From assembly GCF_003634045.1 (NCBI RefSeq), contig NZ_RBIM01000001.1, positions 1-64,000 of the forward strand: a stretch of 64,000 nt of DNA. The letters are read 5' to 3'. The position numbers and the translations under genes are program-made. The stretch comes from Maricaulis maris. Its GTDB lineage: Bacteria > Pseudomonadota > Alphaproteobacteria > Caulobacterales > Maricaulaceae. Shown one piece after another: positions 3,951-16,561 of this stretch (positions within the stretch are counted from its first letter, which is position 1; each line of letters opens with the position of its first letter). Under the pieces are notes generated by a model. That model worked only from the letters and a program-made list of their open reading frames with translations, searched no databases and was not told the origin of the DNA.

Positions 3951-4368
3951 CGACCGGTACCCGCCACGCGGCTAGATACTGGGTCGGTTGAAGGACGACG
4001 AAATGGCCATCATTCAGGCCCAGCAGTCGGCCATTGCCCACATTGATCATCAGCGAGGCGCCAAACGGCTCCGGTGCTGGCAGCGCGACGATATCCGCCA
4101 GCCAGGCCCGCGCCGGCGCGATACGTGTCAGTCCGGCTTGATCAACACCCTCTGCCAGGCCCGGCAAGTCCAGCCTGCGCAGCGCCCGTATCGCCCCAGC
4201 TTCCGAACGATAACGAACGCCTTTCATCAACGGCAAACCGACGCCGAGTTGATGCAGGGTGAAGCCGACCAGCTTGGCACAGTCATGTCGGCCCCACGTC
4301 TGCGGTCGGCCGAAAAAGGTGTCGAGCGCCGCTTGGGCAGCGCGCTGACGTTTGGCTTGATGGCTCAT
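3943..4368 (-). CDS. DUF6950-like phage tail assembly protein
   Basis: This 141-residue protein has the motif TWGRHDCAKL near residues 24-33, typical of a small phage family (DUF6950) distantly like NlpC/P60 peptidases, with Cys and His close together. It sits directly before the tail tip gene, where siphophages often encode a tail-associated peptidase. Its start overlaps the upstream stop (ATGA) and its end overlaps the tail tip start, so translation is probably coupled. Peptidase activity is not established. Confidence 0.65.
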   Translation of the reverse strand: MSHQAKRQRAAQAALDTFFGRPQTWGRHDCAKLVGFTLHQLGVGLPLMKGVRYRSEAGAIRALRRLDLPGLAEGVDQAGLTRIAPARAWLADIVALPAPEPFGASLMINVGNGRLLGLNDGHFVVLQPTQYLAAWRVPVDG

Positions 4369-5012
4369 CGGACCACCACCCCACCATTGGTGACATTCCC
4401 ACCACCGCCTGAACCGCTGGCGATGCTCTTACGCGGTTCTGCGACTCGCCAAAAAACCTTGCCGGCAACCTTCGGGATATGGATCAAGCCATACTCGCCT
4501 GGCCAAACGGAGATATGAAACGCGTGCGACAGACGTTGATGCGCCGTCGGCTCCAGTTGCAGCTCGTCATCTGATCCACATTGCAGGATCACTTGCCGGT
4601 TCGCTTCGCCGACCTTGAGGTTGGCGAAGTCCAGACTGCCGATGAACAAACGCTCCGGAACGCCGATGGCCTGCCCGGTTTCGGGATCAACAGCGCCTTG
4701 CCAGACCCGCACTTGCGATCCTTGCGCGGCCGGCGCGGCCAGCGCCGCAACGGCCCCGTCCGAGGACGGAATGAGCGTGATTTGCGCGGAAACGGCCGTG
4801 GTCGCGACACCGTCTGTGATCGTGTCAACGCCACCCAGGACGCCATAGGTCACGTCGCGGGACGTAAAGCTCTGGGCTTCGCCATCGACCTCGAAAGCCA
4901 CCATTCCGCCATCAACCAGGCGAAGCGCCGCGTCGGGCAATTCGATCTCGACTGCGGTAAAATGGGTCGATATCGCGTTCGACCAGGCCGCTTTGAGAAG
5001 CGCGTCCATCAA
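4365..5012 (-). CDS. Phage tail protein of unknown family (distal tail module)
   Basis: This 215-residue protein has no recognised catalytic motif. It is beta-rich, with the segment RVWQGAVDPETGQAIG followed by LFIGSLDFANLKVGE, resembling proteins lying between tape measure and tip genes in alphaproteobacterial siphophages and gene transfer agents. It overlaps both neighbours by four bases. The C-terminus is Gly/Ser-rich (GSGGGGNVTNGG), possibly a flexible linker. A distal tail or hub component is likely from position only. Confidence 0.55.
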   Translation of the reverse strand: MMDALLKAAWSNAISTHFTAVEIELPDAALRLVDGGMVAFEVDGEAQSFTSRDVTYGVLGGVDTITDGVATTAVSAQITLIPSSDGAVAALAAPAAQGSQVRVWQGAVDPETGQAIGVPERLFIGSLDFANLKVGEANRQVILQCGSDDELQLEPTAHQRLSHAFHISVWPGEYGLIHIPKVAGKVFWRVAEPRKSIASGSGGGGNVTNGGVVVR

Positions 5013-10221: not shown

Positions 10222-11028
10222 TTATCCTTTCGACTGGATGACCAGCTCGCCGGCCGGTCGGCCCGCGCCACCGGATATCGAATAGTTGACCGTCGCCGTC
10301 TCGATGTTGAAGCTAGCGAAGAGCGTGCGGATCTCCGGCCGGTCGTTGATCGACAGGATGAACCGGCCCTTGATTGACGCCAGCCGGTCGGCCAACTCGG
10401 CGAACTCGTCTCGCCCGAACATGCCGGCGCCATAATCCTCTTCATTCCCCCAGTACGGCGGGTCGAGATAGAAGAGTGTGTCGGCGCGATCATAGCGCTC
10501 GATCAACGCCTGCCAGGGCAGGTTCTCGATCACCACACCGGCCAGGCGTTCATGCACCTCCTCAAGCAATGGCGCGAGCGTGTTGAGGTTGAACCGGACA
10601 CCCCGGCCGACGCTCACGCCGAAATTTCGTCCGGCCACCTTGCCGCCGAAGGCCACCCGCTGGAGGTAGAGGAATCGCGCGGCCCGTTCCAGATCCGTGA
10701 GGGTCGCCGGGTCGCAGGCCTGGAGCCGTTCGAACTCACGTCGGCTGGTCACCTGAAAGCGCAGCGTGTCCATGAATTGCGGGTAGTGGCGCTGCAGGAT
10801 GCGAAACAGGTTGGCCACATCACCGGAGAAGTCGTTGATGACCTCACCGGCCGGCGCGCTCGTACGGCGCAGGAATATGCCGCCCATCCCCACAAACGGC
10901 TCGACATATGTCGCGTGAGGCGTCGCGGCGATCATGGCGCAGATCCGCTTGGCCAGGTTGCGCTTGCCGCCGATATAGGCGGACGGTGTTCGGGTCGGCC
11001 GTACCGGCCGCATACTGTCAGGTGTCAT
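10222..11028 (-). CDS. D12-class DNA adenine N6-methyltransferase (Dam-like)
   Basis: The protein has the ordered motifs of D12-class adenine methyltransferases: SAYIGGKRNLAKRI near the N-terminus, FVGMGGIFLR (SAM-binding motif I) and DPPYWG (catalytic motif IV). It would transfer methyl groups to adenine, probably to protect phage DNA from host restriction or adjust methylation-dependent control. The ATG at 11028 is chosen because GGAAGG lies six bases before it; an in-frame ATG at 11157 would add 43 residues unlike the family and has no ribosome binding site. The gene interrupts the head-tail connector operon, so it is probably a late acquisition. Confidence 0.9.
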   Translation of the reverse strand: MTPDSMRPVRPTRTPSAYIGGKRNLAKRICAMIAATPHATYVEPFVGMGGIFLRRTSAPAGEVINDFSGDVANLFRILQRHYPQFMDTLRFQVTSRREFERLQACDPATLTDLERAARFLYLQRVAFGGKVAGRNFGVSVGRGVRFNLNTLAPLLEEVHERLAGVVIENLPWQALIERYDRADTLFYLDPPYWGNEEDYGAGMFGRDEFAELADRLASIKGRFILSINDRPEIRTLFASFNIETATVNYSISGGAGRPAGELVIQSKG

Positions 11029-11175
11029 TCCAATCCTTCCGGAATCGTGAAAATCACCCTGCGCCCCGCAAGGGGCGGCGGATGAAGTATCTCCGGTGCT
11101 TGGTGGGGCGCTGACGCCAATCTGCAACCCCGCTGCCGAGACATTCGCCTCGGCCATCCGCTGACCAGTCTGCGC

Positions 11176-13866: not shown

Positions 13867-15195
13867 CTAGAGGCCGGTGCAGGAGCAGAAGGCGGCGGGT
13901 CGGAAGAAGACGATGCCCATCCGCGTATCGGCCCGGATCGTCCGCTGACCCTTGGTGAACTGCGAGCCGACAAAGCCGACCTGGACGTCAACACCGCGCC
14001 GCTCGAAGAGCGAGACGAAAGCGGGGTTGAATGCCCCGACATAGCCCGTGCCGGCTGCATCGGCGTCGCACTGGACAACCGGCAGACCCCAAAGGCGTTC
14101 CGGCCCGGCTTCGCTCGGATTGCCCCAGATGTAGACGCCGTCGGCGGTGCGCATCAGACGCACGCCCTGCCAGTCAGTCGGGTTGATGACGTGATGGGTC
14201 GGGATCGCCCGGCCAGTGACGCGGATCTTGGTCATGGCCTTGTAGAAGACGTCCGGAACCGGATCGGCGCCCTTCGCCTGCGTCTGGATGCCGACGGTAT
14301 TCTTGAGGCCGCGCATGTTCGGCGTAGTGCCGTTGCCGACGAGGATCTGGCCGTCGAGCCGTTGACGGATGCCGAACACCAGGCGCGAGTTGATGTAGGA
14401 TTGCGACTGATCGACGTCCTCAAGCTGCTCGTCGGTGACCGGGATGCTCGTGCCGATCTTCACGATCGTGCCGTTCTTTTCGGTGAGAACGAACTCGGCC
14501 TCGCCATAGTCGCCACCCTCGGCCACCTCTGCAGCGCCGTGGTTACGGGTGGTTTCTTCCATGTACGGAATCGCCGCCTGACCCGTCCGGGCCATTGGGA
14601 CGATGTCCAGGAGCTGGACCGGACGCGTTGCTGCCTCGACAAAACCCGGCAGGCGGACGCTTTCCGGTGCCCAACCGGCCGACGTGGTCATCGCAGCCTT
14701 GGAGCCGATCGTGTTGATCGACAGACCCTTGGCCAGCATGTCGGACGGCAGATACTCGTCGAACTGCAGGGTAATGCCGTCCGGCGCGCCACGCTCGACC
14801 CAATCGCGATAGGCCTTCTCGTCCGAGACCATATCGCCCAGGGCCTTGAGCTGCTGGACAGCGGAGTCGGACCGGGCCTTGTCGCCGCCAGGCATTGGCA
14901 GGCCGCGCACCGCCTTTTCACGGTCCGAATGCGAAGAGGCCGCTTTCTCGGCCGCCTCCAGCGCCTCGACTGCGGTGGCCGCCTCGTCCAGCTCGGCATT
15001 CTTCTCATTGATGCGCTTGACGACGTCGATCGTCGAATGCGCTTTCGCGTCCATGCCAAGCGAGGCCTGAAGCGTCTCCTTGGCGACTTTCTGGAAGTCG
15101 TACTGACCATCGCTGGTCTTGGCTTCGGTGAAGACGGTGCCGAGCGACGCCTGAAGGGCGGCGAACTTGTCGCGGGCGGCAGTGAGGGTGGTCAT
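13867..15195 (-). CDS. HK97-type major capsid protein
   Basis: A 442-residue protein. The N-terminal ~120 residues are a charged, Ala/Glu-rich delta-like scaffold (LDEAATAVEALEAAEKAASS) probably removed by the adjacent protease. The rest carries HK97-fold segments: TSAGWAPESVRLPGFVEAAT, DIVPMARTGQAAIPYMEET (E-loop region), VGNGTTPNMRGLKN, and ending RADTRMGIVFFRPAAFC. GGGAG precedes the ATG. It lies downstream of the protease with an unusual ~620-bp gap between them. Capsid shells of this family are icosahedral. Confidence 0.92.
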   Translation of the reverse strand: MTTLTAARDKFAALQASLGTVFTEAKTSDGQYDFQKVAKETLQASLGMDAKAHSTIDVVKRINEKNAELDEAATAVEALEAAEKAASSHSDREKAVRGLPMPGGDKARSDSAVQQLKALGDMVSDEKAYRDWVERGAPDGITLQFDEYLPSDMLAKGLSINTIGSKAAMTTSAGWAPESVRLPGFVEAATRPVQLLDIVPMARTGQAAIPYMEETTRNHGAAEVAEGGDYGEAEFVLTEKNGTIVKIGTSIPVTDEQLEDVDQSQSYINSRLVFGIRQRLDGQILVGNGTTPNMRGLKNTVGIQTQAKGADPVPDVFYKAMTKIRVTGRAIPTHHVINPTDWQGVRLMRTADGVYIWGNPSEAGPERLWGLPVVQCDADAAGTGYVGAFNPAFVSLFERRGVDVQVGFVGSQFTKGQRTIRADTRMGIVFFRPAAFCSCTGL

Positions 15196-15636
15196 GGGTC
15201 AATACTCCCGTTGATTGGTCGCCGCAGCCCGCGCGGCCTGTCAGATAGCGGTGAATGACGGGTGCAGCCGGCGCGGCCCGTTCAGGTCGAGAGCAAAGCT
15301 ATTGGGAGGGGAGGTTCGGACCTATCCGCGCAGCCGCGCGGGGCAGTGAGCTGCCGAGATCCGGTGCCAACCGTTCTGGCCGATATTTACCGCGGAATCC
15401 AGCTTGCCGGCACGCCGAAGTGAATTCGCACCGACAAGGCGGCCCAAGATTGGCCCTAAATAGGCACTTTGAACGCGCTGGGCCGCGATTCAGGGCTTGG
15501 AATGTACCAGCGCCGCCGCACGGCCAGCCAAGGCGCTCTGTGCCCGCCAGAATCGCAGCGCGCAAAATGAAGGAAAGTCACGGGAGTATGGATCGGTGGC
15601 GGGGCGACGTCGGTGATCAACCTGGCGCCGCCCGCC
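15196..15636 (-). other. Non-coding spacer upstream of the capsid gene
   Basis: About 440 bases with no convincing gene in an otherwise tightly packed operon. The only visible structure is a 6-bp hairpin CCGCGC-AGCC-GCGCGG at 15326-15341 and the leader with GGGAG before the capsid ATG. A minus-strand frame at 15299-15565 is Arg/Pro/Gly-rich and not credible. The spacer may hold a capsid promoter or RNA element; no clear -35/-10 pair is visible. Confidence 0.5.
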
Positions 15637-15643
15637 AACCTCA

Positions 15644-15674
15644 AACCGCGCTCTACCAATTGAGCTACAGACAG
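15644..15674 (-). tRNA. tRNA 5' half (acceptor strand, D-arm, start of anticodon arm)
   Basis: Minus strand: acceptor strand CTGTCTG (15674-15668), TA, D-stem GCTC / GAGC around loop AATTGGTA (15665-15650), G26 and anticodon strand CGGTT (15648-15644), then TGAGGTT. No matching 3' half follows. Instead the acceptor strand pairs six of seven positions with CAGACAA at 15717-15711, which lies upstream in the transcript, and CGGTT pairs four of five with AACCC at 15744-15740. It is either the second piece of a permuted tRNA or a truncated remnant. Confidence 0.55.
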
Positions 15675-15709
15675 CGCCAAGGGACGCATGCGCCGGGGCA
15701 TGAAGCCGA

Positions 15710-15776
15710 CTTGTCTGACCGGGATCGAACCGGCGTCTCGGGTTCGCGGTGCTCTACCAGGCTGAGCTACCAATCG
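15710..15776 (-). tRNA. Chimaeric tRNA-like element without an anticodon loop
   Basis: Minus strand: CGATTGG (15776-15770), TA, D-arm GCTC-AGCCTGGTA-GAGC (15767-15751), A, CCGCG (15749-15745), immediately followed by AACCC (15744-15740), variable loop GAGAC, T-arm GCCGG-TTCGATC-CCGGT (15734-15718), acceptor strand CAGACAA and G (15717-15710). D and T arms are canonical, but its own acceptor strands do not pair, its anticodon strands do not pair and there is no loop. It therefore reads as the 5' half of one tRNA fused to the 3' half of another. Confidence 0.6.
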
Positions 15777-15811
15777 GGCGGGATTCGAACCCGCGCCCTC
15801 CGCGTCTCGAA
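15770..15811 (-). tRNA. tRNA 3' half (anticodon loop end, T-arm, acceptor strand)
   Basis: Minus strand: loop-like TTCGAGA (15811-15805), anticodon strand CGCGG (15804-15800), variable AGGGC, T-arm GCGGG-TTCGAAT-CCCGC (15794-15778), acceptor CCGATTG (15777-15771) and G. There is no 5' half upstream, because that sequence is the end of the protease gene, whose stop is at 15812. CGCGG pairs perfectly with CCGCG at 15749-15745. CCGATTG can pair with CGATTGG of the next element with two wobbles, but the two strands share the same bases. Confidence 0.55.
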
Positions 15812-16561
15812 CTATAGAGTGCGCGCCCAGCGCCTGAACGCATCCCGTGTTTCGAACGCGGCCGCCAGCCGCTCACCCTCGGCACGGGCCTTGGCCTCGG
15901 CATCGTCCGGATCGGCTCGGCCGGTCTCCAGCACCGCTTCAAGCCGGGCCTTCAACTCGCCCAACTGGGCGAGACGCTCGGCGCCGAGCTGGCGCCCGTC
16001 TCCCTCACGCGCCGCCTTCACGCCCTCGGCGCGCTCGACCAGGTCATCGAGATCCGCGATGGCTTGGTCGATCTGATCGGCGAAGGTGCCGCGTGACTTC
16101 ATGCCCAAGGTGCCGGTGCCCGCGCCGGCACCGCGAACCACTGGCGAGACCTCGTGAACGTCCAGCTTCTTTAGGACACGCACAACCTCGCCGCCGCGAA
16201 GCTCCTGGCGGGCATCCATCACGCCATAGCCGTAGGACCATTCCTGCGACGGCACACCTTTGGCCAAATCAAACTTGAGGTGAGAGTGCCAGTCCCGGCC
16301 ATCGGCCGTGTCGAGGTTGAGGTGCAACTCGGCGAACGCAACCCCCTTGTCCTCGTAGACTCGCGCCTTGCCGAGCGGCAGGGCCTTTCTATTGTGGGCC
16401 GGAAGGATCGGCACCCATTGGCCGCCTTCCTTCCATCCGAACGCACCCTCCTCATAGGCGTCGCCGTCGTAGTCGACCGCCGACAGGGTTGCAATTCGGG
16501 CCAAGCCATGGCCCGCGTCGTCCATCTTCTCGACAATCAGGCTCTTGATCTCGGTTTTCAT
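15812..16561 (-). CDS. HK97 family prohead protease (peptidase U35)
   Basis: A 249-residue protein beginning MKTEIKSLIVEKMDDAGHGLARI. The catalytic His lies in PILPAHNRKALPLG (about residue 56) and the Ser in GVPSQEWSYGYGVMDA (about residue 107), the usual order in this family. The C-terminal third is Ala/Glu-rich and helical, a scaffold-like extension. It cleaves the capsid N-terminus during maturation. It lies three bases downstream of the portal gene stop and ends inside the start of a tRNA-like cluster. Confidence 0.9.
   Translation of the reverse strand: MKTEIKSLIVEKMDDAGHGLARIATLSAVDYDGDAYEEGAFGWKEGGQWVPILPAHNRKALPLGKARVYEDKGVAFAELHLNLDTADGRDWHSHLKFDLAKGVPSQEWSYGYGVMDARQELRGGEVVRVLKKLDVHEVSPVVRGAGAGTGTLGMKSRGTFADQIDQAIADLDDLVERAEGVKAAREGDGRQLGAERLAQLGELKARLEAVLETGRADPDDAEAKARAEGERLAAAFETRDAFRRWARTL

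Follow-up and report, generated by a model that had tools for sequence, protein, structure and literature searches.

The 175 nt that follow the prohead protease gene of a phage in the Maricaulis maris genome probably specify an Rsr-independent, phage-borne tandem mimic of the tRNA elbow, of the Y-RNA effector type, which is without the Ro60/Rsr-binding half and would bind a host factor. The element occupies positions 15811–15637 on the reverse strand of the window (the whole stretch of 64,000 nt that was analyzed, positions 1 to 64,000 of contig NZ_RBIM01000001.1), and its arms, read directly from the sequence, follow one another in the order T-arm, D-arm, T-arm, D-arm. Each T-arm pairs with the D-arm after it, i.e. 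in permuted order. This observation is confirmed as real, chance being excluded by a test of pairing across phages and by the conservation of the element in a related phage contig (L011). The sequences support a module that would run from a closing helix through a variable loop, T-arm, acceptor-like hairpin and D-arm to the other strand of the closing helix, and that would thus be a tRNA core with an open anticodon stem and a closed acceptor.

Organization and conservation of the element

An earlier note, made from the letters alone, had assigned the element to a Mu-like phage. This label stands for the transposition genes, a transposase (phrog_310) and a DNA transposition protein (phrog_296) that are MuA/MuB-like; the head genes match Peptidase_S78, Phage_capsid and Phage_portal. 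The placement between the prohead protease and capsid genes holds; the gap is now sized at 616 nt (15811–15196), and the element takes up its first 175 nt. The parts of the element and its neighbors are listed below from the upstream to the downstream gene.

15812–16561, reverse strand: head maturation (prohead) protease, the upstream gene (PF04586, phrog_80)
15800–15804, reverse strand: A1, 5' strand of the module-1 closing (anticodon-stem-like) helix, CGCGG, 5/5 with B1 at the tRNA-geometry offset
15778–15794, reverse strand: T1, T-arm GCGGG-TTCGAAT-CCCGC, stem 5/5 with a canonical T-loop, within the YrlA match at 15802–15747
15770–15777, reverse strand: truncated acceptor hairpin of module 1, CC-GATT-GG, by direct reading; the acceptor helix covaries in relatives
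15751–15769, reverse strand: D1, D-arm TA-GCTC-AGCCTGGTA-GAGC, stem 4/4
15745–15749, reverse strand: B1, 3' strand of the module-1 closing helix, CCGCG, pairing with A1
15741–15744, reverse strand: A2, 5' strand of the module-2 closing helix, AACC, which abuts B1 and pairs 4/4 with GGTT 15647–15644
15718–15734, reverse strand: T2, T-arm GCCGG-TTCGATC-CCGGT, stem 5/5 including one G-U
15711–15717, reverse strand: acceptor-like strand of module 2, CAGACAA, 6/7 with 15674–15668
15675–15710, reverse strand: loop closing the module-2 acceptor, 36 nt, with small internal hairpins in the constrained fold and one change relative to L011
15668–15674, reverse strand: acceptor-like strand of module 2, CTGTCTG, pairing with CAGACAA 15717–15711
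15650–15667, reverse strand: D2, D-arm TA-GCTC-AATTGGTA-GAGC, by direct reading
15644–15647, reverse strand: B2, 3' strand of the module-2 closing helix, GGTT, pairing with A2
15595–15640, reverse strand: GC-rich hairpin directly past the element, with no clear U-run (downstream 80 nt, z −1.86 against 100 base shuffles)
13867–15195, reverse strand: major capsid protein, the downstream gene (PF05065, phrog_10)

The letters and coordinates given in the earlier note check against the sequence. Its pairings of CGCGG (15804–15800) with CCGCG (15749–15745), 5/5, and of CAGACAA (15717–15711) with CTGTCTG (15674–15668), 6/7, were verified. The third, worded there as 4/5, is AACC (15744–15741) with GGTT (15647–15644), 4/4, and the acceptor strands of module 2 are 36 nt apart rather than 35. 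The module-2 closing stem is short and has two possible registers, the alternative one, by direct reading, being of 3 bp. The acceptor of module 1 has 2–3 bp and that of module 2 pairs at 6/7 positions.

Because the element is on the coding strand of the head operon, with the protease stop 5 nt ahead of the aligned element, co-transcription with the late mRNA would be the simplest arrangement. A DNA methyltransferase gene (phrog_56) is located at 10222–11157 on the reverse strand, inside the phage late region.

The related contig L011, whose capsid is 89% identical, retains the element at 171 of 175 positions with no gaps. The rest of the gap is identical at 259 of 375 positions (69.1%), with 90 gap columns, and the flanking DNA is identical at 90.7% (protease; third codon positions 78%) and 83.5% (capsid; third codon positions 63%). 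The four changes in the element are neutral to the fold, the one at 15712 turning an A-U into a G-U pair. A protein-coding reading was considered and rejected: one of the three frames of the window is open throughout the element, and that frame breaks shortly after the element in L011. The more distant L012 and L013 have an open reading frame at the same protease–capsid site instead of the RNA, and other relatives have other content there. This suggests that the site is a cargo site. Apparent open reading frames at the site were seen in L012 (about 4280–4620), L013, L019 and L022; the one in L012 is, by its look, presumably DUF4031-like. A GC-rich palindromic motif (about CCCGCGCnCnnGCGCGGATG) was noticed by eye upstream of the capsid gene, at about 15343–15313 of the window, and similar motifs recur in the capsid leaders of L005, L006, L009, L011, L012 and L014; it may be a conserved leader RNA element.

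Model matches and pairing across phage elements

ARAGORN detects 0 tRNA and 0 tmRNA genes in the window, and no Rfam model matches the window at its gathering threshold. The best match at a loose threshold is YrlA (RF02553), at 15802–15747 with 39.6 bits (cut-off 69), over model positions 23–85 only, which comprise the tRNA-like module of YrlA and nothing else; in a test for the YrlA basal stem at module 1, model positions 1–22 and 86–114 were unmatched. The full-length YrlA match of module 2 is insignificant (16.2 bits, E 2.4), and the entire module 2 (15746–15642) scores 44.8 bits with model R1. The two-piece permuted tmRNA of Alphaproteobacteria likewise has a permuted tRNA-like end, but the tmRNA model matches only an 18-nt T-arm stretch of the window (14.1 bits), and a permuted tmRNA was rejected on this match and the ARAGORN result.

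YrlA-type partial matches were found in 11 of 101 genomes, the window's own included. Five of the 11 are ordinary tandem tRNAs (G068, G088, G094, G096, G027), and five have Rsr beside true Y RNAs. A partial YrlA match alone is thus not diagnostic, because tandem tRNAs also match that part of the model, and modules were therefore sought with a T-to-D distance too short for neighboring tRNAs. Model R1 matched 378 of 385 genomes, which is no census, as the matches are mostly tandem tRNAs judging by their length, with part of them checked; among 15 genomes fetched (14 from R1 matches plus G244), G489, G428, G460 and G759 proved to be tandem tRNAs. Other matches in relatives consist mainly of a D-arm stretch, and all 10 of the 10 loci checked (own genome included) lie inside tRNA-Pro(CGG). 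A DNA search for the gap in annotated phages returned nothing.

Scans of viral contigs for the short T-to-D distance gave 17 and 37 overlapping stretches that reduce to 35 unique modules. The 28 with a full T-stem were kept, selection being by the letters of the T-loop and D-arm alone. In these 28 modules, which are not 28 independent cases since some are related and they include the window's own IMG/VR copy and a near copy (L102), the closing stem at the fixed position of the tRNA anticodon stem is paired at 98 of 140 positions. Shuffles average 56.5 with a maximum of 77, and none of 20,000 permutations reaches 98. The stem is perfect in nine modules and has four or more pairs in 17. Partners cross-matched between loci average 1.96 of 5, and the seven modules that have no full T-stem show no excess (15/35). 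Among 398 genomes of the order, the only other match to the short-distance pattern is in G244, with TROVE on the same contig.

An alignment of 19 of the 28 modules, picked after seeing the stems (alignment A1, leaving out L102, L116, L126, L128, L138, L115, L134, L112 and L118), has 89% of its cells paired and a covariation of 0.486, compared to 0.132 when shuffled. Changes on both sides occur at 12 of 18 pairs, and at all five closing and all four acceptor pairs. A variable-loop G, which we take to be tRNA position 46, is invariant (19/19) and would, as expected, fit a tRNA tertiary core. The covariation that had been proposed as a check of the cross-piece pairs is therefore present across related elements; the close relative L011 provides only the four changes.

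Single-sequence folding is less favorable. The free fold of the element differs from the permuted one, with a minimum free energy of −62.6 kcal/mol versus −55.3 kcal/mol when the permuted pairs are imposed, and shuffles do no worse in 150 of 200 cases (z +0.66). The element of contig L188 folds weakly better than its shuffles (z −1.62). Adverse folding energies can arise when tertiary contacts are unmodelled.

Tandem elements were sought with the pattern D-arm, 15–23 nt, T-arm, D-arm; an ordinary tRNA needs, by count, about 26 nt at that spacing. The pattern matched 47 viral stretches, and the set comprises 41 unique rows (39 viral, the window and genome G747). Both closing stems are 4/4, register slip allowed, in 13 of the 41 rows: the window, L098, L113, L132, L172/G747, L187, L188, L192, L194, L197, L198, L222 and L224. 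L097 has closing stems of 4 and 3, and the remaining rows include ordinary tRNAs. At the fixed offset, module 2 is paired at 115 of 170 positions (34 of 41 rows usable), compared with a shuffled mean of 70.5 and maximum of 93. Module 1 shows no excess at the strict tRNA offset (53/120 versus a shuffled mean of 51.3); in a register-flexible 4-bp test it is 4/4 in 15 of 24, with 0 of 3000 shuffles. The permuted combination of A2 with B2 is 4/4 in 26 of 34 rows, compared with 9 of 34 for the ordinary-order combination of A2 with B1, whose summed pairing somewhat exceeds that of shuffles (two tests, 81 and 29 of 3000). The ordinary-order combination of D1 with T2 scores 23.4 bits with RF00005 in the window, below the cut-off of 29, and is above the Rfam tRNA cut-off in L113, L188, L192 and L224 (33–35 bits). 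Both modules of L188, L098, L192 and L197 match YrlA below its cut-off. Two double elements were compared with named phages by BLAST, which gave partial matches only, many of them to annotated tRNAs. In an alignment of 13 double elements (alignment A3, leaving out the near copy L011, L198, L133 and L196), the linker between the modules is short and contains AA, by eye, in 9 of 13. Of 385 genomes of the class, only G747 matches the strict form of the pattern, and its match is a true double element; the acceptor loop of the window is too long for this pattern.

These data bear on whether the element is a degraded or deletion-joined tRNA array, as the earlier note had offered in the alternative. 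Its pieces do resemble tRNA halves, a 23-nt stretch of D1 is identical to the D-arm region of tRNA-Pro(CGG) of the host and of the nine relatives checked, and some related elements sit in phage tRNA clusters. The covarying closing and acceptor helices and the conservation of the 175 nt beyond that of the flanking genes contradict an array. Ordinary tRNAs at the site in relatives, which would favor it, are absent: all 40 of the fetched stretches that surround related capsid genes (some of them short contigs) yield 0 tRNA genes with ARAGORN, L011 has the element, and L012 and L013 have an open reading frame. The strict pattern is found in one of 385 genomes, so ordinary tRNA genes (expected in all, uncounted) do not yield it. 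We consider a tRNA array highly improbable.

The same degree of improbability applies to a permuted tRNA gene of the kind found in algae and archaea, with a transcript that would be joined into a circle at its anticodon end and cut at the acceptor. In such genes, as in the element, the 3' half precedes the 5' half, and the permuted-order pairing agrees with such a gene. However, none of the 14 double elements has U at position 33 after module 1, the only module scored. Acceptor length is arbitrary across these elements, and the acceptor of window module 1 is limited to 2–3 bp. BHB splicing machinery is not known in bacteria. Passages of PMC3978253 describe the known permuted tRNAs as maturing by BHB splicing. 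The earlier interpretation as permuted tRNA halves is therefore retained for the pairing and given up for the tRNA gene. Decoding by the element is most unlikely, because it has neither a canonical anticodon loop nor a free acceptor end.

The genomic contexts of the double elements are varied. In L188, which has a different head module, the element lies 12 nt after the protease stop and ahead of head genes (phrog_328, followed by phrog_1731 and phrog_371). In L192 it is between the major head protein and the adaptor, beside tRNAs; in L172 upstream of the portal; in L132 after two tRNAs and ahead of the terminase; and in L098 and L100 near lysis genes. These varied contexts (head, lysis, terminase, tRNA clusters) weaken a capsid-specific role. 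They also bear on the possibility that the element acts only in cis, as a tRNA-like barrier or an RNase P type cleavage site between the protease and capsid messages. The position of the window element on the same strand just past the protease stop, and that of L188, are as expected for such a role, and 9 of 14 double elements have, no more than 140 nt upstream, the end of an open frame of at least 90 codons. Downstream hairpins with z of −1.8 or lower are present in 7 of 14 (window, L011, L098, L132, L187, L194 and L197); the hairpin past the element is kept in L011 with different letters (z −3.53). On the other hand, L113, L172, L188, L192, L222 and L224 have little or no downstream hairpin signal (z −0.71 to +1.66), other copies lie near lysis, terminase, portal or tRNA genes, and the short module-1 acceptors would seem poor RNase P substrates. 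A role restricted to cis is thus possible, but rather doubtful.

Relation to Y RNAs and the Ro60/Rsr partner

The topology of the module is that of YrlA, in which the T-arm is also ahead of the D-arm, with an acceptor-like hairpin between the two and a closing helix where the anticodon stem would be. The element differs from YrlA in its score below the curated cut-off (39.6 versus 69 bits), in that no Rsr-binding basal stem was found, in its two abutting modules, and in that no Rsr gene was found in the host genome. Phages with Y RNA and Ro60, such as Gordonia phage Boopy and Xanthomonas phage 10KY502B, encode modules of the same fold together with a Ro-like protein; none was found for the phage of the window or its host.

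The topology itself is therefore already known from bacterial Y RNAs, and the statement in the earlier note that no phage example is established overlooks YrlA-type Y RNAs of the same topology, which have been reported in phages. Putative Y RNAs and an Rsr-like protein in a Listeria phage, and Y RNAs in mycobacteriophages, are mentioned in passages of PMC12282133, YrlA in one Mycolicibacterium prophage in those of PMC8190616, and TROVE proteins in some jumbo phages in those of PMC7824862. No tandem, Rsr-free form was found in the titles, abstract openings and passages covered, with Chen 2014, Sim and Wolin 2018 and Sim 2020 lying outside this coverage. The unusual part is the tandem form without an Rsr stem or Rsr gene.

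A PF05731 (TROVE) search of the host genome (G000) gave no match. PF05731 alone misses some Rsr genes (G517, G714), and these two, which are outside profile A2 (the Rsr of five relatives), are recovered by that profile as positive controls with E < 1e-190. Profile A2 finds none in G000, G747 and 20 viral records (17 distinct phages at most), an absence that can be taken as firm for the two complete genomes, G000 and G747, alone, as many viral records are possibly fragments. The window lacks the flanks GGCGAATGC..ACTACAT and TTGTCGCC that related alphaproteobacterial Y RNAs have. Eleven relatives were examined, and five of them, two of the same genus, have Rsr adjoining YrlA arrays. TROVE is present in 7 of 23 viral records from the first scans, all of 77–145 kb, among them L133, a 120-kb phage record with a T-D-T-D stretch whose closing stems are only 3/4. 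In the double-pattern set, it is present in 1 of 26 handles (L208, 238 kb). Phage modules with Ro60 exist, and the window is in the set where none was found.

Several of these phage loci are of interest in their own right. In Xanthomonas phage 10KY502B (L229, OQ622092), three YrlA-like modules at 1036–1566 lie beside a Ro60 homologue (TROVE, vWA_Ro60), and one of them overlaps a feature annotated as tRNA-Thr. In Gordonia phage Boopy (L227, MK894436), the position of a module at 1495–1564 coincides in part with a tRNA-Leu annotation, which may be wrong, and a 'Ro-like RNA binding protein' is encoded nearby. Mycobacterium phage Rey (L226, NC_041971) has an unannotated single permuted module with a 7-bp acceptor at 1997–2074, in a tRNA cluster. 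In L095, L099, L104, L107, L109, L116, L119 and L131, several of which are contigs rich in tRNAs, the modules seem by eye to lie inside an outer stem with TTCAGCAA-like and CCTGTT-like ends, and are perhaps another Y-RNA-like class.

The element might still be an ordinary phage Y RNA of the YrlA type, with a diverged basal stem and with Rsr/Ro60 supplied by other hosts or by a co-infecting phage. The shared module topology, the Rsr genes adjoining YrlA arrays in the relatives, TROVE on the contig of G244 and in the records with candidate modules, and the Ro60 homologue of 10KY502B are in its favor. The negative TROVE and profile A2 searches, the missing flanks and the YrlA match that stops at model positions 23–85 argue against it, and we regard it as unlikely.

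Possible role of a tandem tRNA-elbow mimic

The Rsr-independent tandem mimic favored here would, by analogy with YrlA, offer its tRNA elbows for recognition by a host factor of the tRNA-elbow or PNPase type. Since the modules abut, their closing helices could stack into a rod with two elbows. For YrlA, passages of PMC8394870 and PMC7790460 describe PNPase binding, modification by DusA/TruB and the idea of a nuclease decoy; inhibition of an anticodon nuclease by a Y RNA domain is a suggestion made in PMC7790460. The element may serve as a trans-acting decoy, or may in cis protect the protease and capsid mRNAs or direct their processing.

Taken further, these elements could form a distinct class of phage RNA: a back-to-front dimer of tRNA elbows joined at the closing helices, serving as a Ro60/Rsr-free decoy or handle for host readers of the tRNA elbow (PNPase, tRNA enzymes, tRNA-cutting defense nucleases), and spread as a cargo cassette among the late operons of otherwise unrelated phages. 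We put this forward only tentatively. Bacterial Y RNAs are described as tethers of Ro60. If true, an Rsr-free tandem in phages would mean that the half which mimics tRNA is functional by itself, and would offer a small, genetically tractable system for finding the partner of the tRNA mimic. Permuted modules may also be a cause of odd tRNA annotations at such phage sites, and the element itself is a possible non-coding cassette for counter-defense or mRNA processing.
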